DNA from: Kordia antarctica
Lineage (GTDB): Bacteria > Bacteroidota > Bacteroidia > Flavobacteriales > Flavobacteriaceae
Assembly: GCF_009901525.1 (NCBI RefSeq)
Contig: NZ_CP019288.1
Coordinates: 4,803,501-4,867,500, forward strand
DNA length: 64,000 bases
Direction: 5' to 3'
This document shows, one piece after another, positions 18,091 to 64,000 of this stretch. The translations under genes were made by a program, and so were the position numbers. The stretch's first letter is position 1. The number at the start of each line of letters is the position of its first letter. The notes below the pieces were generated by a model that worked only from the letters and a program-made list of their open reading frames with translations, was not told where the DNA came from and did no database searches.

Positions 18091-18933
18091 ATGCAAAACA
18101 TTACTATTGATGCACTGTTGAGAGGTAAACTTTCATGCAGTATATCTTTTGTTTTATTAATTGTTAAGAAGTTTTCTCCCATATTTATTTTGTGGCTTTC
18201 TATGCTACAAATAACTCATGCGCAGGAGAAAACTGTGTATGATGTTCAAAACCTGATGCTAGATGAAACTACGGCTGACGGAATTATTTCCTTTCAAACT
18301 ATAGTGCCACATCTAACAGGTGTTGCTAATTTAAGACATCATGTTTACGAAAATCAAGAGCTGTATCCTATGGAGCAAAAAGCGATTGAAACAAGTAGAG
18401 ATAAAAAGCACGAAGCGCACAAACGATGGGAACGATACATGCGAAAACTGCCTGTATATGTTTACATAGCGAAAGATATCCAAAATTATATTTCGGTAAC
18501 CACAGAAATCAGTGATCATTTTACGGTTTGTCAAAAATTTACTGACAAGCTTGTTGTGAACATTGAAAATAAAAATGAATATCCGATTAGTGCAGAAATA
18601 GAACTTGAAACTGGGAGTATTATAAACTTTCCGAAATCAAAAGATGACGTAAAAATTTCATACAATAAAAATAAAAATATAACTTTCAATTACATTGGTA
18701 ATGGAAGAGCAACATTTAGTTTACCTCCTAAATCAAAAGTATCTGCAATAATACCAGTAGTGTACAGTTGTGACGGAAATAATGGTAAAACAAACAAAAC
18801 TGATAACAGCCAAATCTCGATAAATCACAAGATTAATCTTGTTGGGTACGTTTACAACAGTGAAAAAAAGGAGTTATACAGAATAACTTCTTTCCCTGTG
18901 ACTACCTCAATGATTAAACTTGGATATCTATAA
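18091..18933 (+). CDS. Exported protein of unknown function, first gene of the giant-protein locus
   Basis: A 280-residue protein that I do not recognise. A hydrophobic stretch (about residues 29-44, FSPIFILWLSMLQITHAQ) ending in HAQ looks like a signal peptide with cleavage near residue 45, preceded by an unusually long N-terminal extension; no ATG lies closer. The mature part has a charged helical segment (about 100-120, rich in Lys, Arg, His and Glu) and then strand-rich sequence with repeated 'VNIENKNEYPISAEIELE'-like strands, suggesting a beta-sandwich. Two cysteines (in FTVCQ and VYSCDG) could pair. Its stop codon lies 11 bases before the giant gene, so the two are probably co-transcribed; it may be a partner, chaperone or anchor of that protein, but this is inference. 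Confidence 0.75.
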   Translation: MQNITIDALLRGKLSCSISFVLLIVKKFSPIFILWLSMLQITHAQEKTVYDVQNLMLDETTADGIISFQTIVPHLTGVANLRHHVYENQELYPMEQKAIETSRDKKHEAHKRWERYMRKLPVYVYIAKDIQNYISVTTEISDHFTVCQKFTDKLVVNIENKNEYPISAEIELETGSIINFPKSKDDVKISYNKNKNITFNYIGNGRATFSLPPKSKVSAIIPVVYSCDGNNGKTNKTDNSQISINHKINLVGYVYNSEKKELYRITSFPVTTSMIKLGYL

Positions 18934-18944
18934 AATAAAGTTTC

Positions 18945-21900
18945 ATGACTATGAAAAAAATTACATCAAAAATAGGAGTAGCACTAACAGTGGCATTACT
19001 ATTTTTATTCAGCGCTAATGCACAAAATATTTCTGGAGTAGTAAACTCATACACTACAGTTTCTGCTGTAAGCGGAACAAGTGTAACCGTAGGAAGTAGT
19101 GCTGGTCTAGCAATCAATGATCCTGTAATGATTATCCAAATGACAGGTATTAGTGGTGGCGGAAACGCAGCAGGAGTTGACAATGGCGCGGGTAATTACC
19201 ACTTAGCAAAAATTACGAACATTGCTGGGACTACATTAACGATTGATACGTCAGTTACCAAAACATTTACACCTGGAACGGAAAGAGTACAGCTCGTAAG
19301 AATTGCTAAATATACAAGTGATGTAACCGTAGTAGGTGCAGTATCAGCACAACCATGGAATGGAACTACAGGAGGAGTTGTTTATATAGATGCATGTGAT
19401 AATAATATTACAATGAATGCTAACATAAATGCTTCTGGAGATGGTTTCTTTGGAAGAAATACAACAGCAAGTTTCACTCCAAGTAACTGTGGTGAATCTG
19501 CCGCAGCTTTAACTTCACCAGATGATACTTGGGGAACAGATCCTTTGTATTTTGGTGGAGACTTTTCAGACCCAGCACCTTTATCAGGAGGAACAGGACG
19601 TGGTGGACACGGAGGCTGTGAAGCAGGACAAGGAGCCCCAGATGGAGGAGCAGGAGTAGGTGGTAATGGAGCAAACTCAACAGACGCAACACTTGGTTCA
19701 GGTGGTGGTGGTGGTGGTTATGGTGGTGGTGGTACTAGTGGAGGAGCTGGTACAACTATTTCAGGAACCGCAGCACCAGCTTCAGGAAGTGTGTTTGATA
19801 CAGCAAGTAACTTACGATTATTCATGGGAGCTGCTGGAGGATCTGAAGCAGAATGGGCACCAGCAACTGGAAACGGTGGGGGAATTGTAATTGTACTTGC
19901 TAATAATATAACAACAAACGGATCAAATAGAGATATAGTAAGTGACGGTGACGCAGGACCAAATGCAGGTACATATACTTTTGGAGGTCAATCTTCAAAA
20001 GTAACAGGTGGAGCAGGTGGAGCAGGATATATTGTAGTGCAAGCTGCCACTATTAATGCGCAAGTAAGAGCATTTGCACGTGGTGGAGATGCAACAACAC
20101 AAGCAGGGCCAGCACCAATTTTTACAGAATATGGAGGTCCTGGAGGTGGTGGATTTATTATAAGTACTACTGCAATTACAACTACAGCTGTAAATAGTGG
20201 TAATATTTTAACAGGTAACGGAGCCTTAGCTGGTGCAGCAGGTAAAGTAGTTACAGATGCAGGAATTACTACTGCTTTTACAATAGAATGTTCAAATTGT
20301 AACATAGCAGATGCAGGAAAAACAAATGAAACGTGTAATAATAATTCAACACGCGTTCGATCAGACGATTACGCAAGTTTTGACTTAAACCCAACAGGAA
20401 CAGATTTAGTTTCTACGTATACAGTTACGGCTAACAACGGAGGAGTAGTAACACCAGCTACAGGAACATATGGTTCGGCAACAACCTTTAGATTACAGGA
20501 TGGTTCAGCTAATAACACACTATATACAATTACAATAACTGACAACACAACAGGTACTTGTACAATAACAACATTTGTACAACAAACTAACTGTAATATA
20601 GATTATTGTGATCTATCAATTGCAGGAAATGTAGATACTGATTTAGATGGTGTAGCTGATTTTTGTGATGAAGATGATGATAATGATGGAATATTAGATA
20701 CACAAGAATTTTGTGCAACGGATCCTATCCCATTAAACGTTGATGATGTTATTGAAATTCAAATAGACTTAGATCAGTTTTCAACGGAAACAGGATGGAC
20801 GCTTTCAAGAAGTGGAACAGCTCTCGCTTCAGTAGCACAAGGAACATACACAACCGGAAATGTAACAGTAACACAATCAATAACCATAACAGAAAACGGG
20901 AATCATACGTTTATAATTAATGATAGTTTTGGGGATGGTATACAAGGAAACTCGTACAGAATTATACTAGATGGAGTTACGATAGTGAACCGAACTTTTG
21001 GGTCGCCAAGCGATACAACTACGTTCTCGCAATCAGATAATTTCTTAATAAATTCAATTGTAACAGATTCTTTTAGTTGTTTAGCTGATGATCCTGTAGG
21101 AGATTCAGATGGAGACGGAATTATAAATTACCAAGATCCAGATTTTTGTACTTTAAATGCAAATGGTGTTTGTACTAATTTAGATACAGATGGTGATGGA
21201 ACAATAAATACATTTGATCTTGATAGTGATGGAGATGCGTGTTTTGATACACTAGAAGCAGGACATACAGATGGAGATGCTGACGGAATACTTGGAAACT
21301 CGCCAGTTACAGTAAATGCTACAAATGGTAGAGTAACCGGACAAGGTGGTTACACAGGAACCAATTTGGCAGTTACAAACTCAGGAAATACTACAGCATG
21401 TGCCACGTGTAATTTAACTAATGCCTCTGTATCATCAGTATTTTGTGATGACAATGGAACTCCACTTGATGACACAGATGATACATTTACATTTTACATT
21501 AGTCCTAACGGAACTATTTTAGCACCAACATACAGTGTTACGGGAGGTATTACGCGAGCAAACATTTCTTATGATGCACCCGAACAATTTGGACCATTTG
21601 CTATTTCCGCAGGAAACATAGTATTTACAATAACAGATGATGCAGACGGATCATGTCAATTAGTAGATGTAACGGTAGCGCCGCCAGCAACCTGTTCAAC
21701 ATCAACAGCTGTTGATACTGACAATGATGGTGTAGTAGATAGTGCTGATATTGATAATGACAACGACGGAATCATTGATGACAACGAAAATGTTTGTGCG
21801 TCAAGACCAATAACTTCAAGTCCTTGGACAGGAAGTAACCCATATGCAAACACAGCTGGACCCGTTGGAATTACTTTTGGAAGCACAATTCCAGCAGGCG

Positions 21901-24900
21901 GAAATGTAGCATACACGCCAAACGGTACAATGACAACAGATCCTTTCTATTCTGATGCCGCTGTTCAAGGTTCAAACTCATTAGAATTTTTATTTGCATG
22001 GGATACAACGCCAGAACCATCAAATGCTGCTGCAGATGATGCCGTAACAGGAACAATAACAATTACGTATGCGCAACCTGTTTACAATCCAATTATACAC
22101 ATTGACAGATTAGGAGGAAACAGACAAGTTTCTTCAGGAAACTACATATCAAACTCTTCATTGTGGACACTGCAAAATGCAGATCTTTCAATGGCAAAAA
22201 TATCAGGGAACAACCAACTAATAGTAAGTTCAAAACAATTCTACCGTGATCCTAACCAAAACTTAGGTAGTGGAACTCCAATAGTGGTTTCAGGAAATGC
22301 TGATACAGCAGGATTTGGTACTGCGGCAGGTAGTATTCAAGTATATGGTACAGTAACAACACTAACATTCCAAGTAACAGGAGTAGGTCTTGACGGAAAT
22401 GGATCAGATGTATTAGAAATGTCTTTCGATGCATGTCCATCAATAGATACGGACGGAGATAACACACCAGATTTCTTAGACACCGATAGTGATAATGATG
22501 GTTGTGTTGACGCTATTGAAGGAGCAGCAAATTTCACTGCCGCAGATTTAACTTCTAGTAACAACTTAGCAGATGATGATGAAGGTGCAGTTGGTGCTAA
22601 TGGAGTTCCTACAAACACAGGAAGTCCACAAGCAACAAATGCAAATGTAACTACAGCTACGCAAGCAGCAATCACAACAGAACCAACTAGTCAATCTACA
22701 ATTGAAGGTGGAAACGCTACTTTTACAGCGGCTGCAAGTTCACAATCAACAACTACATATGCTTCTGGAACACCAAACTATACAGTTCCTCCAGCAACAG
22801 ACTCTTCAGCTAACATAGCATACCAATGGCAAGAAAGTACTAACAATGGTACAACTTGGACTAACATCACTGCCGCAGGAACAAATCCAACATATTCAGG
22901 ATTCACGACGAATTCATTAACGCTAACCAATGTACCAGTTACACATAATGGATATGATTACCAATTAATTGTTACTCATAGCGAAAACGAATGTATACTC
23001 ATAGACTCACAAGATGCAAACCTTACTGTTATTGTTACTAATGATGTTGATAATGATGGTGTAGATGATAATACCGACTTAGATGATGACAATGATGGTA
23101 TTTTAGATACTGTTGAGTGTAGTGGTACAACGAGTAACGAGAATTTAGGAGGCTTATTAGCAACAACAGGAACTGGTTTTACTCCAAGATCAGGAGTGGT
23201 AAATAATCTAGCCTTTCCTTCTTCTCCAGTTGCACAAGATGGTACATACATATATGCAGATGTTAGAGAGACAGCTGTAGATGCTAATTCGATAGGCGTT
23301 ACATTTTTTAGGTCGGATCAAGCTGGTGGTATCTTAGGTACTGTAGATGTAGATGCAGATATGGTGTCTCAAACAACCTTGAATAATTCTTTTGTTTCAG
23401 CAAATTCATTAGATATCGTAGATTTCGATGCTCAAGTATTTACATTTACAATAGAAACTTGGTCTACTACCGGCTTGTACACTTCACCATCTGATATTGT
23501 GCTAGTTCAAATTGGAGGAACAGGAACTTTATCTCCAGTCACAGATTTAGGTGGTGGAGTGTTTCAATATACTATTTCAGGAGCAGAAAATCATAATTCT
23601 AGAGTTAATTTGTCTTCAGCTTCTGGCGAACTTATAAAGAGATATAGATTTATAAAACAAGACATTCAAGTTTATTCAGGAGAAAGACTTGCGTTTACTT
23701 TTACTAATCAAATTACAACTTGTGTAGATACAGATGGTGATAATACTCCAGATTATTTAGATACAGACAGCGATAATGATGGTTGTGTAGATGCTATTGA
23801 AGGAGCGGCAAATTTCACTGCTGCAGATTTAACTTCTAGTAACAATTTAGCAGATGCTGATGAAGGTGCTGTTGATGCTAATGGAGTTCCTACAAATACA
23901 GGAAGCCCACAAGCAACAAATGCAAATGTAACTACAGCTACGCAAGCAGCAATCACAACAGAACCAACTAGTCAAACGACAGGTGTAGGTGGAAACGCTA
24001 CTTTTACAGCGGCTGCAAGTTCACAATCAACAACTACATATGCTTCTGGAACACCAAACTATACAGTTCCTCCAGCAACAGACTCTTCAGCTAACATAGC
24101 ATACCAATGGCAAGAAAGTACTAACAATGGTACAACTTGGACTAACATCACTGCCGCAGGAACAAATCCAACATATTCAGGATTCAACACAAACACACTA
24201 ACTTTAACAAATATACCTAGTACTTACAACGGATATGATTATCAACTAATCGTTACTCATAGTGAAAACTCATGTATATTAATAGACTCACAAGATGCAA
24301 ATTTAACTGTTAATCCAGCCTTTACAGTCGGAGATGTAACGCTTGCAGAAAACGCTGGACCAGCAAGTGTACCAGTAAGTATCGCAAATCCAAGTAGTGT
24401 AGATACAGTTGTATCGATTACTACTGTAGATAACACAGCGGTTAATCCAGCGGATTATACAACCACGACAGTAACTGCAACAATTCCAGCAGGACAAACC
24501 ACTGTAAGCGTATCAATTCCAATTACGGATGATTTAGTTGGAGAACCAACTGAAAACTTTACAGTTAACGGAACAGTTGTAAGTGGAAATACATCAAACG
24601 CAACAGATAGCGGAACAGTAACCATTACAGATAATGACACGCCAGCCTTTACAGTTGGAGATGTTACCCTAGCTGAAACAGCAGGACCAGCAAGTATTCC
24701 AGTGAGTATCGCAAATCCAAGTTCAGTAGATACTGTTGTAAGTATCACTACTGTAGATAATACCGCCGTTAATCCAGCGGATTACTCGTCAACAACAGTT
24801 ACTGCAACAATCCCAGCAGGACAAACCACTGTGAACGTAAGTATTCCAATCACAGATGATTTAGTAGGAGAACCAACGGAAAACTTTACAGTTAACGGAA

Positions 24901-27900
24901 ACGTTGTAAGTGGAAACACGAGCAATGCAACAGATAGCGGAACAGTAACAATTACTGATAATGACACACCAGCATTCACAGTTGGAGATGTAACGCTTGC
25001 AGAAAACGCAGGACCAGCAAGTGTCCCAGTAAGTATCGCAAACCCAAGTAGTGTAGATACCGTAGTAAGTATCACTACAGTAGATAACACAGCGGTTAAT
25101 CCAGCGGATTACTCGACCACGACAGTTACTGCAACAATCCCAGCAGGACAAACAACAGTTAATGTATCAATTCCAATCACAGATGATTTAGTAGGAGAAC
25201 CAACGGAAGACTTCAGTGTAAACGGAAGCGTAGTTAGTGGAAATACATCAAACGCAACAGATAGCGGAACAGTAACCATTACAGATAATGACACGCCAGC
25301 CTTTACAGTTGGAGATGTTACCCTAGCTGAAACAGCAGGACCAGCAAGTATTCCAGTGAGTATCGCAAATCCAAGTTCAGTAGATACTGTTGTAAGTATC
25401 ACTACTGTAGATAATACCGCCGTTAATCCAGCGGATTACTCGTCAACAACAGTTACTGCAACAATCCCAGCAGGACAAACCACTGTGAACGTAAGTATTC
25501 CAATCACAGATGATTTAGTAGGAGAACCAACGGAAAACTTTACAGTTAACGGAAACGTTGTAAGTGGAAACACGAGCAATGCAACAGATAGCGGAACAGT
25601 AACAATTACTGATAATGACACACCAGCATTCACAGTTGGAGATGTAACGCTTGCAGAAAACGCAGGACCAGCAAGTGTCCCAGTAAGTATCGCAAACCCA
25701 AGTAGTGTAGATACCGTAGTAAGTATCACTACAGTAGATAACACAGCGGTTAATCCAGCGGATTATACGACCACGACAGTTACTGCAACAATCCCAGCAG
25801 GACAAACAACAGTTAATGTATCAATTCCAATCACAGATGATTTAGTAGGAGAACCAACGGAAGACTTCAGTGTAAACGGAAGCGTAGTTAGTGGAAACAC
25901 ATCAAACGCAACAGATAGCGGAACAGTAACCATTACAGACAATGACACACCAGCGTTCGTTGTAGGTGATGTAACGATCGCAGAAAACGCAGGGCCAGCA
26001 AGTGTACCAGTAAGTATCGCAAACCCAAGTAGTGTAGATACGGTTGTATCAATCACTACAGTAGATAACACAGCGGTTAATCCAGCGGATTACTCGACCA
26101 CAACAGTTACTGCAACAATCCCAGCAGGACAAACAACAGTTAATGTTAGTATTCCAATTACGGACGATTTAGTAGGAGAACCAACGGAAAACTTTACAGT
26201 TAACGGAAACGTTGTAAGTGGAAACACGAGCAATACAACAGATAGTGGAACAGTAACCATTACTGATAATGACACACCAGCCTTTACAGTTGGAGATGTT
26301 ACCCTAGCTGAGACAGCTGGACCAGCAAGTATTCCAGTGAGTATCGCAAATCCAAGTTCAGTAGATACTGTTGTAAGTATCACTACTGTAGATAATACAG
26401 CGGTTAATCCAGCGGATTATACAACAACAACGGTCACTGCAACAATCCCAGCAGGACAAACCACCGTTAATGTATCTATTCCAATTACAGATGATTTAGT
26501 TGGAGAACCAACAGAAAACTTTACAGTTAACGGAACAGTTGTAAGTGGAAATACATCAAACGCAACAGATAGTGGAACAGTAACAATCACTGATAATGAC
26601 ACACCAGTCTTTACAGTTGGAGATGTTACCCTAGCTGAGACAGCTGGACCAGCAAGTGTACCAGTAAGTATCGCAAATCCAAGTAGTGTAGATACAGTTG
26701 TATCAATCACTACTGTAGATAATACAGCGGTTAATCCAGCGGATTATACAACCACGACAGTCACTGCTACGATTCCAGCAGGACAAACGACAGTAAACGT
26801 ATCAATTCCAATTACGGATGATTTAGTTGGAGAACCAACAGAAAACTTTAGTGTAAACGGAAGCGTAGTTAGTGGAAACACCTCAAATGCAACCGATAGC
26901 GGAACAGTAACCATTACAGATAACGACACGCCAGCCTTTACAGTTGGAGATGTTACCCTAGCTGAAACTGCAGGACCAGCAAGTGTTCCAGTAAGTATCG
27001 CAAACCCAAGTAGTGTAGATACAGTTGTATCAATCACTACTGTAGATAATACTGCGGTTAATCCAGCGGATTACTCGACCACGACAGTCACTGCTACGAT
27101 TCCAGCAGGACAAACGACAGTAAACGTATCCATTCCAATAACAGATGATTTAGTTGGAGAACCAACGGAAGACTTCAGTGTAAACGGAAGCGTAGTAAGT
27201 GGAAACACGAGTAACGCAACCGATAGCGGAACAGTAACAATCACTGATAACGACACGCCAGCCTTTACAGTTGGAGATATAACGCTAGCTGAAACTGCAG
27301 GACCAGCAAGTGTTCCAGTAAGTATCGCAAATCCAAGTAGTGTAGATACTGTTGTATCGATCACTACAGTAGATAACTCAGCGACAGATCCAAATGATTA
27401 CTCGACCACGACAGTCACTGCAACAATCCCAGCGGGACAGACAACAGTTAATGTTAGTATTCCAATCACAGATGATTTAGTTGGAGAACCAACGGAAGAC
27501 TTCAGTGTAAACGGAAGCGTAGTTAGTGGAAACACGAGCAATACAACAGATAGCGGAACAGTAACCATTACTGATAACGACACACCAGCCTTTACAGTTG
27601 GAGATGTTACCCTAGCTGAAACAGCAGGACCAGCAAGTGTTCCAGTAAGTATCGCAAACCCAAGTAGTGTAGATACGGTAGTTTCAATCACTACTGTAGA
27701 TAATACAGCGACTGATCCTAATGATTATACGACCACAACAGTTACTGCAACAATTCCAGCAGGACAAACGACAGTAAATGTAAGTATTCCAATTACCGAT
27801 GATTTAGTTGGAGAACCAACCGAAAACTTCAGTGTAAACGGAAGTGTAGTAAGTGGAAACACGAGCAATGCAACAGATAACGGAACAGTAACAATCACCG

Positions 27901-30900
27901 ATAACGACACACCAGCATTCACAGTTGGAGATGTGACGCTTGCAGAAAACGCAGGACCAGCAAGTGTTCCAGTTAGCATTGCTAATCCAAGTTCAGTAGA
28001 TACTGTTGTAAGTATCACTACTGTAGATAATACTGCGGTTAATCCAGCGGATTACTCGACCACGACAGTTACTGCAACAATCCCAGCAGGACAAACCACC
28101 GTAAACGTATCAATTCCAATCACGGATGATTTAGTTGGAGAGCCAACGGAAAATCTTACAGTTAATGGAACAGTAGTAAGTGGAAACACAAGTAACACAA
28201 CAGACAGCGGAACAGTAACAATCACAGATAACGACACACCAGCTTTCACAGTTGGAGATGTGACGCTTGCAGAAAACGCAGGACCAGCAAGTGTTCCAGT
28301 TAGCATTGCTAATCCAAGTTCAGTAGATACTGTTGTAAGTATCACTACTGTAGATAACACAGCGGTTAATCCAGCGGATTACTCGACCACGACAGTAACT
28401 GCTACGATTCCAGCAGGACAAACAACAGTTAATGTATCAATTCCAATCACAGATGATTTAGTAGGAGAACCAACAGAAAACTTTACAGTTAACGGAAACG
28501 TTGTAAGTGGAAACACGAGCAACACAACAGATAGCGGAACAGTAACCATCACAGATAACGACACGCCAGCCTTTACAGTAGGTGATGTAACCATCGCAGA
28601 AAATGGCGGTAGCGCATCAGTTCCAGTAAGTATTGACAATCCAAGTTCAGTAGATACGGTTGTAAGTATTACCACGGTTGATAACAGTGCAACAGATCCA
28701 AATGATTACTCGACCACGACAGTTACTGCAACAATCCCAGCAGGACAAACAACAGTGAATGTATCAATTCCAATTACGGATGATTTAGTTGGAGAACCAA
28801 CGGAAAACTTTACAGTCAATGGAAGCGTAGTTAGTGGAAACACGAGCAATGCAACAGATAGCGGAACAGTAACCATTACAGACAACGACACGCCGGCCTT
28901 TACAGTAGGTGATGTAACAATCGCAGAAAACGGCGGAAGCGCATCAGTTCCAGTAAGTATTGACAATCCAAGTTCAGTAGATACAGTAGTGAGTATTACC
29001 ACGGTTGATAACTCTGCAACTGATCCAAATGATTACTCGACCACAACAGTCACTGCAACAATCCCAGCAGGACAAACGACCGTGAACGTTAGTATTCCAA
29101 TCACAGATGATTTAGTTGGAGAACCAACAGAAGACTTTAGTGTAAACGGAAGCGTAGTTAGTGGAAACACTTCAAACACAACAGATAGCGGAACAGTAAC
29201 CATCACAGACAACGACACACCAGCCTTTACAGTTGGAGATGTAACGATCGCAGAAAACGGCGGAAGTGCATCAGTACCAGTAAGTATTGACAATCCAAGT
29301 TCAGTAGATACGGTTGTAAGTATCACTACAGTAGATAACACAGCGGTTAATCCAGCGGATTACTCGACCACGACAGTTACTGCTACGATTCCAGCAGGAC
29401 AAACAACAGTTAATGTAAGTATTCCAATCATCGATGATTTAGTTGGAGAACCAACGGAAAACTTTAGTGTAAACGGAAGTGTAGTAAGTGGAAACACAAG
29501 CAACGCAACAGACAGCGGAACAGTAACCATTACAGATAACGACACACCAGCATTTACAGTTGGAGATGTAACGATCGCAGAAAATGGCGGAAGCGCATCA
29601 GTTCCAGTAAGTATTGACAATCCAAGTTCAGTAGATACGGTTGTATCAATCACTACTGTAGATAATACTGCGGTTAATCCAGCGGATTACTCGACAACGA
29701 CCGTTACTGCTACGATTCCAGCAGGACAAACAACAGTTAATGTTAGTATTCCAATTACGGATGATTTAGTAGGAGAACCAACAGAAGACTTTAGTGTAAA
29801 CGGAAGCGTAGTTAGTGGAAATACATCAAATGCAACCGACAGCGGAACAGTAACCATTACAGATAATGATACACCAGCATTCACAGTAGGTGATGTAACG
29901 CTCGCAGAAAACGCTGGACCAGCAAGTGTACCAGTTAGTATCGCAAATCCAAGTAGTGTAGATACGGTTGTATCAATCACTACAGTAGATAACACTGCGG
30001 TTAATCCAGCGGATTACTCGACCACAACAGTTACTGCAACAATCCCAGCAGGACAAACCACCGTGAATGTTAGTATTCCAATTACGGATGATTTAGTAGG
30101 AGAACCAACTGAAAACTTTACAGTTAACGGAACAGTTGTAAGTGGAAATACATCAAATGCAACAGACAGCGGAACAGTAACCATTACAGATAATGACACG
30201 CCAGCATTCACAGTTGGAGATGTAACGCTTTTAGAAAACGCAGGACCAGCAAGTGTTCCAGTAAGTATCGCAAACCCAAGTAGTGTAGATACCGTAGTAA
30301 GTATCACTACAGTAGATAACACAGCGGTTAATCCAGCGGATTACTCGACAACGACAGTTACTGCAACGATTCCAGCAGGACAAACGACCGTGAACGTTAG
30401 TATTCCAATCACGGATGATTTAGTAGGAGAACCAACAGAAAACTTTACAGTTAACGGAAACGTTGTAAGTGGAAACACGAGCAATGCAACAGATAGCGGA
30501 ACAGTAACTATTACAGATAACGATACACCAGCATTCACAGTTGGAGATGTAACGCTTGCAGAAAACGCAGGACCAGCAAGTGTACCAGTAAGTATCGCAA
30601 ACCCAAGTAGTGTAGATACGGTTGTATCGATTACTACAGTAGATAACACTGCGGTTAATCCAGCGGATTACACAACAACGACAGTAACTGCTACGATTCC
30701 AGCAGGACAAACAACAGTGAATGTATCAATTCCAATCACAGATGATTTAGTAGGAGAACCAACAGAAAACTTTACAGTTAACGGAAACGTTGTAAGTGGA
30801 AACACGAGCAATACAACAGATAGCGGAACGGTAACAATTACAGATAATGACACGCCAGCCTTTACAGTCGGAGATGTAACGCTTGCAGAAAACGCAGGAC

Positions 30901-33900
30901 CAGCAAGTGTCCCAGTAAGTATCGCAAACCCAAGTAGTGTAGATACGGTTGTATCGATTACTACAGTAGATAACACTGCGGTTAATCCAGCGGATTACTC
31001 GACCACGACAGTTACTGCAACCATTCCAGCGGGACAAACCACAGTTAATGTATCAATTCCAATCACAGATGATTTAGTAGGAGAACCAACGGAAAACTTT
31101 ACAGTTAACGGAAACGTAGTAAGTGGAAACACATCAAACGCAACAGATAGCGGAACAGTAACAATTACAGATAATGACACGCCAGCCTTTACAGTAGGTG
31201 ATGTAACCATCGCAGAAAACGCTGGACCAGCAAGTGTACCAGTTAGTATCGCAAACCCAAGTAGTGTAGATACAGTAGTATCCATCACTACTGTAGATAA
31301 CACAGCGGTTAATCCAGCGGATTACTCGACAACGACAGTTACTGCAACGATTCCAGCAGGACAAACGAGCGTGAATGTTAGTATTCCAATCACAGATGAC
31401 ATCGTTGGAGAACCAACGGAAGACTTCAGTGTAAACGGAAGCGTAGTTAGTGGAAACACATCAAACGCAACAGATAGCGGAACGGTAACAATTACAGATA
31501 ATGATACGCCAGCGTTTACTGTTGGAGATGTAACCATCGCAGAAAACGCAGGACCAGCAAGTGTCCCAGTAAGTATCGCAAATCCAAGTAGTGTAGATAC
31601 TGTTGTATCGATCACTACAGTAGATAACTCAGCGACAGATCCAAATGATTACTCGACCACAACAGTAACTGCAACAATCCCAGCAGGACAAACAACAGTG
31701 AATGTATCAATTCCAATCACAGATGATTTAGTAGGAGAACCAACGGAAGACTTCAGTGTAAACGGAAGCGTAGTTAGTGGAAACACATCAAACACCACAG
31801 ATAGCGGAACAGTAACCATTACAGACAATGACACACCAGCGTTCGTTGTAGGTGATGTAACGATCGCAGAAAACGCTGGACAAGCATCAGTACCAGTTAG
31901 CATAGCAAACCCAAGTAGTGTAGATACAGTAGTATCCATCACTACTGTAGATAACACAGCGGTTAATCCAGCGGATTACTCGACCACAACGGTTACTGCA
32001 ACAATCCCAGCAGGACAAACAACAGTTAATGTTAGTATTCCAATTACGGATGATTTAGTAGGAGAACCAACTGAAAACTTTACAGTTAACGGAACAGTTG
32101 TAAGTGGAAATACATCAAATGCAACCGACAGCGGAACAGTAACCATTACAGATAACGACACGCCAGCCTTTACAGTAGGTGATGTAACGCTTGCAGAAAA
32201 CGCTGGACCAGCAAGTGTACCAGTAAGTATCGCAAATCCAAGTAGTGTAGATACTGTTGTATCGATCACTACTGTAGATAACTCAGCGACAGATCCAAAT
32301 GATTACTCGACCACGACAGTAACTGCAACAATCCCAGCAGGACAAACAACAGTAAACGTAAGTATTCCAATCACAGATGATTTAGTAGGAGAACCAACGG
32401 AAAACTTTACAGTCAATGGAAGCGTAGTAAGTGGAAACACATCAAACGCAACAGATAGCGGAACAGTAACAATTACAGATAACGACACGCCAGCCTTTAC
32501 AGTAGGTGATGTAACCATCGCAGAAAACGCTGGACCAGCAAGTGTACCAGTTAGTATCGCAAACCCAAGTAGTGTAGATACCGTAGTAAGTATCACTACA
32601 GTAGATAACACAGCGGTTAATCCAGCGGATTACTCGACAACGACCGTTACTGCAACAATCCCAGCAGGACAAACAACAGTAAACGTAAGTATTCCAATTA
32701 CCGATGATTTAGTAGGAGAACCAACGGAAAACTTTACAGTTAACGGAAACGTTGTAAGTGGAAACACATCAAACACAACAGATAGCGGAACAGTAACCAT
32801 TACAGATAACGACACACCAGCCTTTACAGTAGGTGATGTAACGCTTGCAGAAAACGCTGGACCAGCAAGTGTACCAGTAAGTATCGCAAATCCAAGTAGT
32901 GTAGATACTGTTGTATCGATTACTACAGTAGATAATACTGCGGTTAATCCAGCGGATTACTCGACCACGACAGTTACTGCAACAATCCCAGCAGGACAAA
33001 CCACCGTAAACGTATCAATTCCAATCACGGATGATTTAGTTGGAGAGCCAACGGAAAATCTTACAGTTAATGGAACAGTAGTAAGTGGAAACACAAGTAA
33101 TACAACAGACAGCGGAACAGTAACAATCACAGATAATGACACACCAGCTTTCACAGTTGGAGATGTGACGCTTGCAGAAAACGCAGGACCAGCAAGTGTT
33201 CCAGTTAGCATTGCTAATCCAAGTTCAGTAGATACTGTTGTAAGTATCACTACTGTAGATAACACAGCGGTTAATCCAGCGGATTACTCGACCACGACAG
33301 TAACTGCTACGATTCCAGCAGGACAAACAACAGTTAATGTATCAATTCCAATCACAGATGATTTAGTAGGAGAACCAACAGAAAACTTTACAGTTAACGG
33401 AAACGTTGTAAGTGGAAACACATCAAACACAACAGATAGCGGAACAGTAACCATCACAGATAACGACACGCCAGCCTTTACAGTAGGTGATGTAACCATC
33501 GCAGAAAATGGCGGTAGCGCATCAGTTCCAGTAAGTATTGACAATCCAAGTTCAGTAGATACGGTAGTGAGTATCACTACAGTAGATAACTCAGCGACAG
33601 ATCCAGCGGATTACTCGTCAACAACAGTTACTGCAACAATCCCAGCAGGACAAACCACCGTGAATGTATCAATTCCAATCACAGATGATTTAGTTGGAGA
33701 ACCAACAGAAGACTTCAGTGTAAACGGAAGTGTAGTAAGTGGAAACACGAGCAATGCAACAGATAGCGGAACAGTAACCATTACAGACAACGACACGCCG
33801 GCCTTTACAGTAGGTGATGTAACAATCGCAGAAAACGGCGGAAGCGCATCAGTTCCAGTAAGTATTGACAATCCAAGTTCAGTAGATACAGTAGTGAGTA

Positions 33901-51900: not shown

Positions 51901-54900
51901 ACTCAGCGACTGATCCAGCGGATTACTCGACCACGACAGTAACTGCTACGATTCCAGCAGGACAGACAACAGTTAATGTTAGTATTCCAATTACCGATGA
52001 TTTAGTAGGAGAACCAACGGAAAACTTTACAGTCAATGGAAGCGTAGTAAGTGGAAACACATCAAACACAACAGATAGCGGAACAGTAACCATTACAGAT
52101 AACGACACACCAGCCTTTACAGTAGGTGATGTAACGCTTGCAGAAAACGCTGGACCAGCAAGTGTACCAGTAAGTATCGCAAATCCAAGTAGTGTAGATA
52201 CTGTTGTATCGATCACTACTGTAGATAACTCAGCGACAGATCCAAATGATTACTCGACCACGACAGTAACTGCTACGATTCCAGCAGGACAAACAACAGT
52301 GAATGTATCAATTCCAATCACAGATGATTTAGTAGGAGAACCAACGGAAAACTTTACAGTTAACGGAAACGTAGTAAGTGGAAACACCTCAAACACAACA
52401 GATAGCGGAACAGTTACCATTACAGATAACGACACACCAGCCTTTACAGTTGGAGATGTAACGCTTGCAGAAAACGCAGGACCAGCAAGTGTCCCAGTAA
52501 GTATCGCAAACCCAAGTAGTGTAGATACCGTAGTAAGTATCACTACTGTAGATAATACTGCGGTTAATCCAGCGGATTACTCGACCACAACAGTTACTGC
52601 AACAATTCCAGCAGGACAAACCACAGTAAACGTTAGTATCCCAATCACAGATGATTTAGTTGGAGAACCAACGGAAGACTTCAGTGTAAACGGAAGCGTA
52701 GTAAGTGGAAACACGAGCAACACAACAGATAGCGGAACAGTAACCATCACAGATAATGATACACCAGCATTCACAGTAGGTGATGTAACGATCGCAGAAA
52801 ATGGCGGATCGGCATCAGTTCCAGTAAGTATTGACAATCCAAGTTCAGTAGATACGGTAGTGAGTATCACTACAGTAGATAACTCAGCGACAGATCCAGC
52901 GGATTACTCGTCAACAACAGTTACTGCAACAATCCCAGCAGGACAAACCACCGTGAATGTATCAATTCCAATCACAGATGATTTAGTTGGAGAACCAACA
53001 GAAGACTTCAGTGTAAACGGAAGTGTAGTAAGTGGAAACACAAGCAATACAACAGATAGCGGAACAGTAACCATCACAGATAATGATACACCAGCATTTA
53101 CTGTTGGAGATGTAACGATCGCAGAAAATGGCGGATCGGCATCAGTTCCTGTGAGTATTGACAATCCAAGTTCAGTAGATACGGTAGTAAGTATTACCAC
53201 GGTTGATAACAGTGCAACAGATCCAAATGATTACTCGACCACGACAGTCACTGCAACAATTCCAGCAGGACAGACAACAGTTAATGTTAGTATTCCAATC
53301 ACGGATGATTTAGTTGGAGAACCAACGGAAGACTTTAGTGTAAACGGAAGCGTAGTAAGTGGAAACACATCAAACACCACAGATAGCGGAACAGTAACCA
53401 TCACAGATAACGACACACCAGCGTTTACTGTTGGAGATGTAACCATCGTAGAAAACGCAGGACCAGCAAGTGTTCCAGTAAGTATCGCAAACCCAAGTAG
53501 TGTAGATACTGTTGTATCGATTACTACAGTAGATAATACTGCGGTTAATCCAGCGGATTACTCGACCACGACAGTTACTGCAACAATTCCAGCAGGACAA
53601 ACAACAGTGAATGTATCAATTCCAATCACAGATGATTTAGTTGGAGAACCAACAGAAAACTTTACAGTTAACGGAAGCGTAGTTAGTGGAAACACTTCAA
53701 ACGCAACAGATAGCGGAACAGTAACCATCACAGATAATGACACACCAGCCTTTACAGTAGGTGATGTAACGATCGCAGAAAATGGCGGATCGGCATCAGT
53801 TCCTGTGAGTATTGACAATCCAAGTAGTGTAGATACAGTTGTATCGATCACTACTGTAGATAACACTGCGGTTAATCCAGCGGATTACTCGTCAACAACA
53901 GTTACTGCAACAATCCCAGCAGGACAAACAACTGTGAACGTATCAATTCCAATTACAGATGATTTAGTTGGGGAACCAACGGAAGACTTCAGTGTAAACG
54001 GAAGCGTAGTAAGTGGAAACACGAGCAATACAACAGATAGCGGAACAGTAACAATTACAGATAATGATACGCCAGCCTTTACTGTTGGAGATGTAACAAT
54101 CGCAGAAAATGGCGGTAGTGCATCAGTTCCAGTAAGTATTGACAATCCAAGTTCAGTAGATACGGTAGTAAGTATCACTACAGTAGATAACTCAGCGACT
54201 GATCCAAATGATTACTCGACCACTACAGTAACTGCAACAATCCCAGCAGGACAAACAACAGTGAATGTATCAATTCCAATCACAGATGATTTAGTAGGAG
54301 AACCAACAGAAAACTTTACAGTTAACGGAAACGTTGTAAGTGGAAACACGAGCAATACAACAGATAGCGGAACGGTAACAATTACAGATAATGACACGCC
54401 AGCCTTTACAGTCGGAGATGTAACGCTTGCAGAAAACGCAGGACCAGCAAGTGTCCCAGTAAGTATCGCAAACCCAAGTAGTGTAGATACGGTTGTATCG
54501 ATTACTACAGTAGATAACACTGCGGTTAATCCAGCGGATTACTCGACCACGACAGTTACTGCAACCATTCCAGCGGGACAAACCACAGTTAATGTATCAA
54601 TTCCAATCACAGATGATTTAGTAGGAGAACCAACGGAAAACTTTACAGTTAACGGAAACGTAGTAAGTGGAAACACATCAAACGCAACAGATAGCGGAAC
54701 AGTAACAATTACAGATAATGACACGCCAGCCTTTACAGTAGGTGATGTAACCATCGCAGAAAACGCTGGACCAGCAAGTGTACCAGTTAGTATCGCAAAC
54801 CCAAGTAGTGTAGATACAGTAGTATCCATCACTACTGTAGATAACACAGCGGTTAATCCAGCGGATTACTCGACAACGACAGTTACTGCAACGATTCCAG

Positions 54901-57900
54901 CAGGACAAACGAGCGTGAATGTTAGTATTCCAATCACAGATGACATCGTTGGAGAACCAACGGAAGACTTCAGTGTAAACGGAAGCGTAGTTAGTGGAAA
55001 CACATCAAACGCAACAGATAGCGGAACGGTAACAATTACAGATAATGATACGCCAGCGTTTACTGTTGGAGATGTAACCATCGCAGAAAACGCAGGACCA
55101 GCAAGTGTCCCAGTAAGTATCGCAAATCCAAGTAGTGTAGATACTGTTGTATCGATCACTACAGTAGATAACTCAGCGACAGATCCAAATGATTACTCGA
55201 CCACAACAGTAACTGCAACAATCCCAGCAGGACAAACAACAGTGAATGTATCAATTCCAATCACAGATGATTTAGTTGGGGAACCAACGGAAGACTTCAG
55301 TGTAAACGGAAACGTTGTAAGTGGAAACACGAGCAATACAACAGATAGCGGAACAGTAACCATCACAGATAATGACACACCAGCCTTTACAGTAGGTGAT
55401 GTAACGATCGCAGAAAATGGCGGATCGGCATCAGTTCCAGTAAGTATTGACAATCCAAGTTCAGTAGATACGGTTGTAAGTATTACCACGGTTGATAACA
55501 GTGCAACAGATCCAAATGATTACTCGACCACTACAGTAACTGCAACAATCCCAGCAGGACAAACAACAGTGAATGTATCAATTCCAATTACGGATGATTT
55601 AGTAGGAGAACCAACGGAAAACTTCAGTGTAAACGGAAGTGTAGTAAGTGGAAACACATCAAACACCACAGATAGCGGAACAGTAACCATTACAGATAAT
55701 GACACACCAGCATTTACAGTTGGAGATGTAACCATCGCAGAAAATGGCGGAAGCGCATCAGTTCCAGTAAGTATTGACAATCCAAGTTCAGTAGATACGG
55801 TTGTAAGTATCACTACAGTAGATAACTCAGCGACAGATCCAGCGGATTACTCGACCACAACGGTTACTGCAACAATCCCAGCAGGACAAACGACTGTGAA
55901 CGTTAGTATTCCAATCACAGATGATTTAGTTGGAGAACCAACGGAAGACTTCAGTGTAAACGGAAGCGTAGTTAGTGGAAACACGAGCAACGCAACAGAT
56001 AGCGGAACAGTAACCATTACAGATAATGACACACCAGCATTTACAGTTGGAGATGTAACAATCGCAGAAAATGGCGGAAGCGCATCAGTTCCAGTAAGTA
56101 TTGACAATCCAAGTTCAGTAGATACGGTTGTAAGTATTACCACGGTTGATAACAGTGCAACAGATCCAAATGATTACTCGACCACTACAGTAACTGCAAC
56201 AATCCCAGCAGGACAAACAACAGTGAATGTATCAATTCCAATTACGGATGATTTAGTAGGAGAACCAACGGAAGACTTCAGTGTAAACGGAAGTGTAGTA
56301 AGTGGAAACACAAGCAATACAACAGATAGCGGAACAGTAACCATCACAGATAATGATACACCAGCATTCACAGTTGGAGATGTAACGATCGCAGAAAATG
56401 GCGGATCGGCATCAGTTCCTGTGAGTATTGACAATCCAAGTTCAGTAGATACGGTAGTAAGTATTACCACGGTTGATAACAGTGCAACAGATCCAAATGA
56501 TTACTCGACCACGACAGTAACTGCTACAATTCCAGCAGGACAAACAACAGTGAATGTATCAATTCCAATCACAGATGATTTAGTTGGAGAACCAACGGAA
56601 GACTTCAGTGTAAACGGAAGCGTAGTTAGTGGAAACACGAGCAACACAACAGATAGCGGAACAGTAACCATTACAGATAACGACACACCAGCATTCACAG
56701 TTGGAGATGTGACGCTTGCAGAAAACGCAGGACCAGCAAGTGTTCCAGTTAGCATTGCTAATCCAAGTTCAGTAGATACTGTTGTAAGTATCACTACTGT
56801 AGATAATACTGCGGTTAATCCAGCGGATTACTCGACCACGACAGTCACTGCAACAATCCCAGCAGGACAAACCACCGTAAACGTATCAATTCCAATCACG
56901 GATGATTTAGTTGGAGAGCCAACGGAAAATCTTACAGTTAATGGAACAGTAGTAAGTGGAAACACAAGTAACACAACAGACAGCGGAACAGTAACAATCA
57001 CAGATAACGACACACCAGCCTTTACAGTAGGTGATGTAACAATTGCAGAAAACGCAGGGCCAGCAAGTGTTCCAGTAAGTATCGCAAATCCAAGTAGTGT
57101 AGATACGGTTGTATCAATCACTACAGTAGATAACACAGCGACTGATCCAGCGGATTACTCGTCAACAACAGTAACTGCAACAATTCCAGCAGGACAAACA
57201 ACAGTGAATGTAAGTATTCCAATCACAGATGATTTAGTTGGAGAACCAACAGAAAACTTTAGTGTAAACGGAAACGTAGTAAGTGGAAACACCTCAAACA
57301 CCACAGATAGCGGAACAGTTACCATTACAGATAACGACACACCAGCCTTTACAGTAGGTGATGTAACCATCGCAGAAAATGGCGGAAGCGCATCAGTTCC
57401 AGTAAGTATTGACAATCCAAGTTCAGTAGATACAGTAGTAAGTATCACTACAGTAGATAACTCAGCGACTGATCCAGCGGATTACTCGACCACGACAGTA
57501 ACTGCTACGATTCCAGCAGGACAGACAACAGTTAATGTTAGTATTCCAATTACCGATGATTTAGTAGGAGAACCAACGGAAAACTTTACAGTCAATGGAA
57601 GCGTAGTAAGTGGAAACACATCAAACACAACAGATAGCGGAACAGTAACCATTACAGATAACGACACACCAGCCTTTACAGTAGGTGATGTAACGCTTGC
57701 AGAAAACGCTGGACCAGCAAGTGTACCAGTAAGTATCGCAAATCCAAGTAGTGTAGATACTGTTGTATCGATCACTACTGTAGATAACTCAGCGACAGAT
57801 CCAAATGATTACTCGACCACGACAGTAACTGCTACGATTCCAGCAGGACAAACAACAGTGAATGTATCAATTCCAATCACAGATGATTTAGTAGGAGAAC

Positions 57901-60900
57901 CAACGGAAAACTTTACAGTTAACGGAAACGTAGTAAGTGGAAACACCTCAAACACAACAGATAGCGGAACAGTTACCATTACAGATAACGACACACCAGC
58001 CTTTACAGTTGGAGATGTAACGCTTGCAGAAAACGCAGGACCAGCAAGTGTCCCAGTAAGTATCGCAAACCCAAGTAGTGTAGATACCGTAGTAAGTATC
58101 ACTACTGTAGATAATACTGCGGTTAATCCAGCGGATTACTCGACCACAACAGTTACTGCAACAATTCCAGCAGGACAAACCACAGTAAACGTTAGTATCC
58201 CAATCACAGATGATTTAGTTGGAGAACCAACGGAAGACTTCAGTGTAAACGGAAGCGTAGTAAGTGGAAACACGAGCAACACAACAGATAGCGGAACAGT
58301 AACCATCACAGATAATGATACACCAGCATTCACAGTAGGTGATGTAACGATCGCAGAAAATGGCGGATCGGCATCAGTTCCAGTAAGTATTGACAATCCA
58401 AGTTCAGTAGATACGGTAGTGAGTATCACTACAGTAGATAACTCAGCGACAGATCCAGCGGATTACTCGTCAACAACAGTTACTGCAACAATCCCAGCAG
58501 GACAAACCACCGTGAATGTATCAATTCCAATCACAGATGATTTAGTTGGAGAACCAACAGAAGACTTCAGTGTAAACGGAAGTGTAGTAAGTGGAAACAC
58601 AAGCAATACAACAGATAGCGGAACAGTAACCATCACAGATAATGATACACCAGCATTTACTGTTGGAGATGTAACGATCGCAGAAAATGGCGGATCGGCA
58701 TCAGTTCCTGTGAGTATTGACAATCCAAGTTCAGTAGATACGGTAGTAAGTATTACCACGGTTGATAACAGTGCAACAGATCCAAATGATTACTCGACCA
58801 CGACAGTCACTGCAACAATTCCAGCAGGACAGACAACAGTTAATGTTAGTATTCCAATCACGGATGATTTAGTTGGAGAACCAACGGAAGACTTTAGTGT
58901 AAACGGAAGCGTAGTAAGTGGAAACACATCAAACACCACAGATAGCGGAACAGTAACCATCACAGATAACGACACACCAGCGTTTACTGTTGGAGATGTA
59001 ACCATCGTAGAAAACGCAGGACCAGCAAGTGTTCCAGTAAGTATCGCAAACCCAAGTAGTGTAGATACTGTTGTATCGATTACTACAGTAGATAATACTG
59101 CGGTTAATCCAGCGGATTACTCGACCACGACAGTTACTGCAACAATCCCAGCAGGACAAACCACCGTAAACGTATCAATTCCAATCACGGATGATTTAGT
59201 TGGAGAACCAACAGAAGACTTTACGGTAAACGGAAGCGTAGTAAGTGGAAACACGAGCAACGCAACAGATAGCGGAACAGTAACCATCACAGATAACGAC
59301 ACGCCGGCCTTTACAGTAGGTGATGTAACGATCGCAGAAAATGGCGGAAGCGCATCAGTTCCAGTAAGTATTGACAATCCAAGTTCAGTAGATACGGTAG
59401 TGAGTATCACTACAGTAGATAACTCAGCGACAGATCCAGCGGATTACTCGACCACAACGGTTACTGCAACAATCCCAGCAGGACAAACAACAGTGAATGT
59501 ATCAATTCCAATTACAGATGATTTAGTTGGAGAACCAACGGAAGACTTTAGTGTAAACGGAAGCGTAGTAAGTGGAAACACATCAAACACCACAGATAGC
59601 GGAACCGTAACCATCACAGATAATGATACACCAGCATTTACTGTTGGAGATGTAACCATCGCAGAAAACGGCGGTAGCGCATCAGTTCCAGTTAGCATAG
59701 CAAACCCAAGTAGTGTAGATACCGTTGTAAGTATCACTACAGTAGATAACAGTGCTACAGATCCAAATGATTACTCGACCACGACAGTAACTGCTACGAT
59801 TCCAGCAGGACAAACGAGCGTGAACGTTAGTATTCCAATCACAGATGACTTAGTTGGAGAACCAACAGAAGACTTCAGTGTAAACGGAAGCGTAGTTAGT
59901 GGAAACACATCAAACACTACAGATAGCGGAACAGTAACCATCACAGACAACGACACACCAGCCTTTACAGTAGGTGATGTAACGCTTGCAGAAAACGCAG
60001 GACCAGCAAGTGTCCCAGTAAGTATCGCAAATCCAAGTAGTGTAGATACGGTTGTATCAATCACTACAGTAGATAACACTGCGGTTAATCCAGCGGATTA
60101 CTCGACCACGACAGTTACTGCAACAATCCCAGCAGGACAAACCACCGTAAACGTATCAATTCCAATCACAGATGATTTAGTAGGAGAACCAACAGAAAAC
60201 TTTACAGTTAACGGAAACGTTGTAAGTGGAAACACATCAAACACAACAGATAGCGGAACCGTAACCATCACTGACAACGACACACCAGCATTTACAGTAG
60301 GTGATGTAACAATCGCAGAAAATGGCGGAAGCGCATCAGTTCCTGTGAGCATTGCAAATCCAAGTTCAGTAGATACGGTTGTATCAATTACTACTGTAGA
60401 TAATACTGCGGTTAATCCAGCAGATTACTCGACCACAACAGTAACTGCAACAATCCCAGCAGGACAAACAACAGTGAATGTATCAATTCCAATTACGGAT
60501 GATTTAGTTGGAGAACCAACAGAAGACTTCAGTGTAAACGGAAGTGTAGTAAGTGGAAACACAAGCAATACAACAGATAGCGGAACAGTAACCATTACAG
60601 ATAACGACACACCAGCATTCACAGTTGGTGATGTAACGATCGCAGAAAATGGCGGAAGCGCATCAGTTCCAGTTAGCATAGCAAACCCAAGTAGTGTAGA
60701 TACCGTTGTAAGTATCACTACAGTAGATAACTCAGCGACAGATCCAAATGATTACTCGACCACAACGGTTACTGCAACAATCCCAGCAGGACAAACCACA
60801 GTAAATGTTAGTATTCCAATTACCGATGATTTAGTTGGAGAACCAACAGAAGACTTCAGTGTAAACGGAAGCGTAGTTAGTGGAAACACTTCAAACGCAA

Positions 60901-63900
60901 CCGACAGCGGAACAGTAACCATTACTGACAACGACACACCAGCATTCACAGTTGGAGATGTAACAATCGCAGAAAATGGCGGAAGCGCATCAGTTCCAGT
61001 AAGTATTGACAATCCAAGTTCAGTAGATACGGTTGTAAGTATTACCACGGTTGATAACAGTGCAACAGATCCAAATGATTACTCGACCACTACAGTAACT
61101 GCAACAATCCCAGCAGGACAAACAACAGTGAATGTATCAATTCCAATTACGGATGATTTAGTAGGAGAACCAACGGAAAACTTCAGTGTAAACGGAAGTG
61201 TAGTAAGTGGAAACACATCAAACACCACAGATAGCGGAACAGTAACCATTACAGATAATGACACACCAGCATTTACAGTTGGAGATGTAACCATCGCAGA
61301 AAATGGCGGAAGCGCATCAGTTCCAGTAAGTATTGACAATCCAAGTTCAGTAGATACGGTTGTAAGTATCACTACAGTAGATAACTCAGCGACAGATCCA
61401 GCGGATTACTCGACCACAACGGTTACTGCAACAATCCCAGCAGGACAAACGACTGTGAACGTTAGTATTCCAATCACAGATGATTTAGTTGGAGAACCAA
61501 CGGAAGACTTCAGTGTAAACGGAAGCGTAGTTAGTGGAAACACGAGCAACGCAACAGATAGCGGAACAGTAACCATTACAGATAATGACACACCAGCATT
61601 TACAGTTGGAGATGTAACAATCGCAGAAAATGGCGGAAGCGCATCAGTTCCAGTAAGTATTGACAATCCAAGTTCAGTAGATACGGTTGTAAGTATTACC
61701 ACGGTTGATAACAGTGCAACAGATCCAAATGATTACTCGACCACTACAGTAACTGCAACAATCCCAGCAGGACAAACAACAGTGAATGTATCAATTCCAA
61801 TTACGGATGATTTAGTAGGAGAACCAACGGAAGACTTCAGTGTAAACGGAAGCGTAGTTAGTGGAAACACATCAAACACAACAGATAGCGGAACAGTAAC
61901 CATTACAGATAATGACACACCAGCATTTACAGTTGGAGATGTAACAATCGCAGAAAATGGCGGAAGCGCATCAGTTCCAGTAAGTATTGACAATCCAAGT
62001 TCAGTAGATACGGTTGTAAGTATTACCACGGTTGATAACAGTGCAACAGATCCAAATGATTACTCGACCACTACAGTAACTGCAACAATCCCAGCAGGAC
62101 AAACAACAGTGAATGTATCAATTCCAATTACGGATGATTTAGTTGGAGAACCAACTGAAAACTTTACAGTCAATGGAAACGTTGTAAGTGGAAACACATC
62201 AAACACAACAGATAGCGGAACAGTAACTATCACAGATAACGATACGCCAGCGTTTACTGTTGGAGATGTAACCATCGCAGAAAACGCAGGGCCAGCAAGT
62301 GTCCCAGTAAGTATCGCAAATCCAAGTAGTGTAGATACTGTTGTATCGATCACTACAGTAGATAACTCAGCGACAGATCCAAATGATTACTCGACCACAA
62401 CAGTTACTGCAACAATCCCAGCAGGACAAACAACAGTTAATGTTAGTATTCCAATCACAGATGATTTAGTTGGAGAACCAACAGAAGACTTCAGTGTAAA
62501 CGGAAGCGTAGTTAGTGGAAACACGAGCAATACAACAGATAGCGGAACGGTAACGATCACAGACAACGACACACCATCCATAGTAATTGGAGATGTAACA
62601 GTAGATGAAGGAGCAGGCACAGTAAGTGTACCAGTAACTATCAGCAATCCAAGTAGTGTAGATACCGTAGTAAGTATTACCACTACCACAGGAACGGCAG
62701 GAACAGCTGATTACACAACAACAACGGTGACTGCAACGATACCAGCAGGACAAACAACGGTTTCTATTATCATTCCAATCACGGATGATTTAATAGATGA
62801 GCCAAATGAAGATTTCACAGTAAATGGAACTGTCACAAGTGGCAACACAAGTAACACAGATCCAAGTGGAACGATAACAATTACAGACAACGATGGCTTA
62901 CCAATGGTAACAATTGGCGATGTAATAGTTGATGAGACAGATGGCACGGCAGTAGTTCCAGTAAGTATCGATACACCAAGTAGTGTAGACACGGTAGTTA
63001 CCATCACAACAACTAACGTTGATGCAACAAGTCCAAATGATTACACGACCACAACAGTAACTGCAACTATCCCAGCGGGACAAACCACAGTTAATGTAAG
63101 TATACCAATTATAGATGATGTTGTTGGAGAACCTACAGAAACATTCACAGTAGATGGAAACGTTGTAAGTGGAAACACAATCAACACGAATCCAAGCGGA
63201 ACAGTAACGATCAATGACAACGATACACCATCCATAGTAATTGGAGATGTAACAGTAGATGAAGGCGCAGGCACAGTAAGTGTACCAGTAACTATCAGCA
63301 ATCCAAGTAGTGTAGATACCGTAGTAAGTATTACCACTACCACAGGAACGGCAGGAACAGCTGATTACACAACAACAACGGTGACTGCAACGATACCAGC
63401 AGGACAAACAACGGTTTCTATTATCATTCCAATTACGGATGATTTAATAGATGAGCCAAATGAAGATTTCACAGTAAATGGAACTGTCACAAGTGGCAAC
63501 ACAAGTAACACAGATCCAAGTGGAACGATAACAATTACAGACAACGATGGCTTACCAATGGTAACAATTGGCGATGTAATAGTTGATGAGACAGATGGCA
63601 CGGCAGTAGTTCCAGTAAGTATCGATACACCAAGTAGTGTAGACACGGTAGTTACCATCACAACAACTAACGTTGATGCAACAAGTCCAAGTGATTACAC
63701 GACCACAACAGTTACTGCAACCATCCCAGCGGGACAAACCACAGTTAATGTAAGTGTACCAATTATAGATGATGTTGTTGGAGAACCTACAGAAACATTC
63801 ACAGTAGATGGAAACGTTGTAAGTGGAAACACAATCAACACGAATCCAAGCGGAACAGTAACGATCAATGACAACGATACACCATCCATAGTAATTGGAG

Positions 63901-64000: not shown

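Follow-up and report, generated by a model that had tools for sequence, protein, structure and literature searches.

The protein of 16,946 aa encoded at one locus of Kordia antarctica is probably a fixed, non-gliding type B adhesin of the type IX secretion system, built of a calcium-stiffened stalk, an exchangeable tip and a conserved anchor. The mechanism which we infer from sequence for its secretion, static anchoring, adhesion and recombination is as follows. Led to the periplasm by a Sec signal, the chain would be directed through SprA by its C-terminal type B domain, and an adjacent barrel of the PorP/SprF family would collect the protein and hold its C-terminus in the outer membrane, where an adjacent PorE-like protein would link the barrel to peptidoglycan. 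Stiffened by calcium, the 131 Calx-beta units would form a long stalk holding the N-terminal tip away from the cell. The giant would stay fixed rather than glide, as its carrier has no cysteines in the C-terminal tail and a PorE-like gene lies next to it. The tip would be exchanged across species with the anchor conserved, and unequal recombination between units would make the stalk longer or shorter. Gene and domain content were already known; what is new is the assignment to a static anchor, the division of the tips into classes and the account of how the array evolves.

The giant frame and its published description

The analysed stretch, referred to as the window, comprised 64,000 bases (4,803,501-4,867,500) of the one 5,500,985-bp contig of K. 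antarctica. Translation of the window gave 15,018 codons without stop or N from 18945 to 63998 on the forward strand, in agreement with the preliminary description, which had reported a single frame of more than 15,000 codons open at the window edge. When the frame was followed over a further 20 kb of this contig, as that description had proposed, the stop codon was found at 69783-69785 (window coordinates are continued past the edge), 5.8 kb beyond the edge. The complete protein of 16,946 aa has a mass of 1.69 MDa and a pI of 4.05, and its frame is unbroken over 50.8 kb; an in-frame stop or a frameshift had been named as possible flaws, and neither was present on full translation. The remark that a listing of complete ORFs omits the giant was true, as a mere consequence of where the window ends.

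The visible part of this type B protein (18945..64000, + strand) was divided by translation and HMM scans. A signal peptide of 27 aa ending in SANAQ was recognized by eye at 18945..19025 (+), and one is also predicted in the published description (PMC7477175). It belongs to a Gly-rich tip of aa 1-553 (18945..20603, +), weakly AgmC_N-like and assigned below to tip class A. The tip is followed by a conserved region of aa 579-1789 (20679..24311, +), at the start of which lies a thrombospondin-type-3 stretch (aa 564-594) scoring below cut-off. The Calx-beta array covers aa 1790-16067, visible at 24312..64000 and ending at 67145 (+). Past the edge, 17 units of 46 aa (67170-69515, +) and a CHU_C/TIGR04131 sorting domain (69483-69782, +) complete the protein.

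The composition is extreme, with Thr at 19.5%, Val at 13.8%, Lys at 0.10% and Arg at 0.20%. Lys and Arg together number 51 and are confined to the first 1,581 and the last 78 residues, so that 15,287 consecutive residues are free of both. The array itself (14,278 residues) contains 1,773 Asp and Glu and not a single Lys, Arg, His, Cys or Trp. Such a Lys/Arg-free stalk suggests why proteins of this kind may escape ordinary proteomics.

A 'giant gene' was reported in the 2020 genome paper of K. antarctica IMCC3317T (Sci Rep 2020, 10:14715, PMC7477175; IMG 2713618241), with 50,835 bp, 16,944 aa, more than 100 Calx-beta domains, a signal peptide, TIGR04131, about 42% GC and top ten BLAST hits of 3,864-12,288 aa. 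The difference of two residues from our count would fit initiation at the ATG that lies two codons further in. The passages of that paper on the giant gene assign no function to it and, as far as they go, are silent on the 46-aa array, the carrier, the PorE-like neighbour, tip classes and evolution of the units. In the open-licence literature we found no other report of a giant gene with Calx-beta domains, and none of Calx-beta together with type IX secretion, giant proteins or a Bacteroidota adhesin; a search of the same literature for Calx-beta in biofilm adhesins showed no Bacteroidota report among the titles listed.

The Calx-beta array and its length

The array consists of 131 Calx-beta units of 109 aa (327 bp) each, all scoring over the 27 bits that Pfam sets as curated cut-off for PF03160, which bears out the earlier Calx-beta assignment. 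The figure of about 121 repeats given for the window was likewise accurate: 122 HMM matches were found there, 121 with more than 90% coverage, and one unit is cut by the edge. A genome-wide PF03160 search returned 138 places, all above cut-off, 131 in the giant and 7 in other frames. There were two side observations on the end of the array. The last 14 units, from 62571, run as seven pairs of 108 + 110 aa, the very last with 109, and the rest have 109 aa. Antisense frames of 169 codons recur there with a period of 654 bp (window 62898-63407 and L002:206-2677, where L002 is a downstream segment), probably as an effect of the composition of the repeat.

When aligned to the calcium site of NCX1, residues E13, D48, D74, E78, E81 and D107 were invariant in 131/131 units, and D73, N108 and D109 were kept in 128. 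The aligned NCX1 positions are calcium ligands. A PDB profile search returned NCX1 for six of seven sequences, the best match being a protein-asparaginase, and the fold matches were led by NCX1, with TM-scores not above 0.41 among the matches listed. The conserved residues suggest that the Calx-beta units may bind calcium. A structure model of three units reached pLDDT 75 and pTM 0.45, while four further models stayed at pLDDT 37-48; in the three-unit model the units appear fairly modelled, but not the angles between them. A Calx-beta domain is about 4 nm long, and 131 of them would span about half a micrometre if straight. The same length had been suggested before; its order of magnitude is plausible, while the inter-domain geometry behind it is poorly predicted, as the pTM indicates.

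The units differ considerably in DNA. Their mean identity was 84% among the 118 units of equal length, and 105 of all 131 are distinct. Among these 118 units of 109 aa (the 13 of other length were left out), synonymous differences averaged 0.390 and non-synonymous differences 0.077, with a pN/pS of 0.198 over 6,903 unit pairs. The Calx-beta units are under purifying selection. They are also homogenised within species. In a set of 237 units with full coverage and without N or stop, from which our own edge-cut unit and partial matches were dropped, the nearest DNA neighbour was conspecific for 129/130 units of K. antarctica, 28/28 of G001, 25/26 each of G009 and G003, and 11/13 of G002 (G numbers denote Kordia genomes, G000 being K. 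antarctica). Conspecific neighbours were less frequent where few units are known (G005 3/6, G010 2/4), and one G004 unit stood outside the tally. The three units of another K. antarctica gene had their nearest neighbours among the units of the giants and not among themselves.

The relatives raise the question whether the true gene is short and its units were multiplied by the assembler. The N-terminal query matched in all 10 congeners. The two single-contig ones have only 27 (G009) and 30 (G003) units, both in broken frames, and such numbers would suit a short gene, as would the block duplications at 17, 20 and 59 units. Exact repeats of at least 900 bp number five in the array, at distances of 17, 20, 59, 72 and 13 units. 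Even the longest of them, with 2,876 bp, is nevertheless far shorter than the N50 of the PacBio reads (20,089 bp, about 93x; PMC7477175), and the unbroken 50.8-kb frame, the number of distinct units and their mean synonymous difference also contradict such multiplication. Such an excess of synonymous over non-synonymous differences is unexpected for a junk or artefact array. An artefact, which the preliminary description had considered, is unlikely given the repeat variation and the read length, and we rate an assembler-made array length as highly improbable.

In the eight draft loci, 0-9 units were found before the contig end or in a short array, and further units lie on downstream contigs in G001 (22), G002 (6) and G005 (4). 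The frame of the giant is broken in K. algicida (G009; locus L020), G003 (L021) and G010 (L029, which contains Ns). In G003, upstream of prfC, L021:1-4603 carries an ORF of 419 aa, presumably transposase-like, and two similar ORFs of 480 aa. Among 149 Flavobacteriaceae genomes, compared by first-look candidates because scored counts there seem to be capped at 27, K. antarctica had 141 Calx-beta candidates and the next genomes 35 and 32; a match at 1e-6 occurred in 53 of the 149.

Tip classes and the upstream genes

Upstream of the giant, an ORF of 531 aa on the reverse strand (16214..17800, by translation) encodes what we take from its sequence to be PrfC, peptide chain release factor 3. This prfC-like neighbour stands beside the giant in 10/11 Kordia genomes, and a 531-aa ORF with a like start was found in 9 congeners; in G009, the 5 kb upstream of the giant showed no prfC-like gene. 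The prfC-like gene marks the locus and is outside the system. Between it and the giant lies a gene for an exported-looking protein of 280 aa (18091..18933, +), which ends 11 bases before the giant and for which HMM library scans found no family. At window 18015-18022, 68 bases before the 280-aa gene, stands TACATTTG, similar to the -7 element of Bacteroidota promoters, with a TTG farther upstream of it than the usual spacing.

The tips of the 11 Kordia genomes fell into five classes by sequence, three of them resting on one genome each and one of these, that of G009, at another chromosomal place. Class A comprised G000, G001, G005, G006 and G008 (80-88% identical), class B comprised G002, G007 and G010 (80-85% identical), and G004, G003 and G009 had a private class each. 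Two matches between classes were seen by BLAST at 1e-3: the first 37 residues of G004, i.e., the signal peptide region, with class A (53-58% identical), and 98 residues between G008 and G009 (E 6e-4). No further similarity between tip classes was found at this threshold. The 600 aa after the tip were 70-79% identical to the K. antarctica sequence in 8 congeners, nine genomes being compared; G006 and G008 stood outside this comparison, as the joint pattern was not found there.

Six of the 11 tips were scanned with Pfam. Class B tips of G002 and G010 contained Big_9 above cut-off, and that of G010 Cadherin_5 as well; CshA_repeat matched the two below cut-off, and the G004 tip contained DUF7933 above cut-off. 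The tips of K. antarctica, G009 and G003 matched no Pfam family. For the K. antarctica tip, a structure of aa 3-470 was discarded at pLDDT 29, and the three antibody chains returned by a PDB search (E 0.19-0.3) were taken as chance. Membership in AgmC_N was rejected, at 65 bits against an NCBIfam cut-off of 275. BamM, Wyosine_form, DUF5977, DUF7122, bpX1, MAPKK1_Int and AgaE stayed below cut-off and were regarded as composition noise, as was Temptin_C, which reached 53 bits (cut-off 27) over the whole protein with no single stretch passing. Because the K. antarctica tip was neither modelled nor matched in Pfam, the word adhesin is drawn from the architecture and from the tips of the relatives.

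Full-length copies of the 280-aa gene were confined to the five genomes of class A. Remnants matching 77 residues in G004 and 61 in G003 were found, and none in the other four genomes. The 280-aa protein may be a partner of tip class A, and the remnants would fit an exchange by which G004 and G003 lost class A, a direction that we infer. A search for silent cassettes located class B tips in G002, G007 and G010 alone among the 11 Kordia genomes, at one place each, and residues 1-470 of class A at no second place; stored cassettes of these two classes were thus not seen. Titles and abstract starts in the open-licence literature contained no report of tip exchange in type IX adhesins.

These observations lead us to a wider proposal, put forward tentatively, of an adhesin with polymorphic tips and variable reach, in which the anchor is kept, the tips are swapped, the length changes several-fold and the Lys/Arg-free stalk is selected. 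If this is true, the stalk would resist trypsin-like proteases and be hidden from tryptic proteomics, and one tip class would travel with its own 280-aa partner gene, leaving fragments of it under other tips. The Kordia relatives offer a naturally graded set of stalk lengths and tips, with which reach could be told apart from specificity.

The anchor, rival readings and known systems

A type IX C-terminal domain, which the preliminary description had recommended looking for, was found at the end of the giant, with 38.9 bits for TIGR04131 (cut-off 35) and 91.7 for CHU_C (cut-off 27). Genome-wide there were 13 type B sorting domains, all above cut-off, of which that of the giant scored lowest (44.3 bits in the genome-wide search, cut-off 35); its frame is by far the longest, with 16,948 codons against 2,540 for the next. 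Downstream lie a PorP/SprF carrier at 69857-70792 (L002:5857-6792, +; 268.8 bits, cut-off 90.55) and a PorE-like protein, P0002, at 70804-72750 (L002:6804-8750, +). The latter matched two PorE-type models near full length and below cut-off (337.5 bits, cut-off 600; 465.6, cut-off 620). SprA (2,916 bits, cut-off 200) and GldK (608 bits, cut-off 350) are present in the genome, and the giant thus has both the adjacent cognate carrier and the SprA that go with a type B substrate. A promoter and terminator scan of the downstream genes gave fewer hits than shuffled sequence (9 vs 13.0 and 0 vs 2.2).

The carrier has cysteines at 132 and 135 alone and none in its tail, and its last 60 residues were cysteine-free in 11/11 Kordia genomes. 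A PorE-like gene follows the carrier in all 11, recognized by shared motif except for P0002, which alone was scanned against the HMM libraries. Carrier and PorE-like gene stand directly after the C-terminal end of the giant in 10/11, G008 reading N before the carrier. The K. antarctica genome has four carriers: two without tail cysteines, each with a PorE-like gene next, and two with a pair (CNC; CYGC) and no such gene. The two PorE-like proteins following carriers are 44% identical. With n = 4, this split is a matter of consistency, not proof. The fourth carrier, with the CNC tail (L091:725-1729, i.e., G000:C1:4175725-4176729), has no type B gene adjoining. By analogy with F. johnsoniae, in which one orphan shuttle serves three orphan substrates (PMC12618676), it might serve those type B proteins that lack a dedicated carrier (10 of the 13 sorting domains).

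Each type B substrate stays attached to its dedicated PorP/SprF carrier (PMC12635249; PMC9143113), SprF requires a CxC in its tail to couple to the GldK track (PMC12635249), PorE has both PorP and peptidoglycan as binding partners (PMC9143113), and a type B protein in an operon with carrier and PorE (Fjoh_3952) is static in F. johnsoniae (PMC12618676). Against this background the giant could be read as a mobile, SprB-like adhesin that the gliding track carries along. The type B domain, the PorP/SprF carrier, the huge repetitive build and the presence of GldK and SprA would all agree with it. The neighbourhood has neither a CxC carrier tail nor an operon free of PorE, both of which characterize the SprB type; instead, substrate, carrier and PorE-like gene stand side by side, as in static assembly. 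A PorE-like neighbour is absent from mobile substrates as these are described in PMC12618676 and PMC9143113, and the strain is recorded as non-motile (PMC7477175). The missing CxC does not preclude movement, since SprF without it still makes sporadic contacts with the track (PMC12635249). On balance we regard a mobile giant as unlikely.

The giant could also be a released or coat-forming matrix protein, part of a surface coat, a biofilm matrix or a calcium- or ice-binding layer, rather than a tether acting as a single molecule. Such a role would be in line with the very acidic array and with a K. antarctica tip that has no recognised domain. Since the type B domain, the adjoining carrier and the PorE-like gene indicate anchoring, we judge it similarly improbable. 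In the fixed-adhesin reading, which we prefer, the carrier cysteines and the PorE-like neighbour place this protein, among the largest known from bacteria, in a fixed class, and hence give it a testable function.

The closest counterpart is found in F. johnsoniae, where Fjoh_3952, Fjoh_3951 (SprF-like) and Fjoh_3950 (PorE-like) likewise place substrate, carrier and PorE-like protein side by side. Static foci of Fjoh_3952 were shown in cells; the giant is likened to it by gene arrangement, not by sequence. SprB with SprF in the same species is likewise a very large, repetitive type B protein (669 kDa) with its own carrier (PMC9143113). It differs from the giant in that SprF has a CxC tail, no PorE-like neighbour is described and SprB moves on tracks (PMC12635249; PMC9143113). 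By profile and leading fold match the units resemble NCX1, in a different protein context. The tetra-repeat of an Aeromonas RTX adhesin (6xi1) was fourth among the fold matches to the units, and RTX adhesins use type I secretion. Finally, the earlier view that the giant is among the largest bacterial proteins is fair, although it is not the largest: an Omnitrophota ORF of 39,678 aa exceeds it, and differs in having 42 predicted transmembrane helices (PMC10066038). A role in coat or adhesion has been proposed for such ORFs, most of which, according to the same source, have few annotated domains, unlike the giant of K. antarctica.
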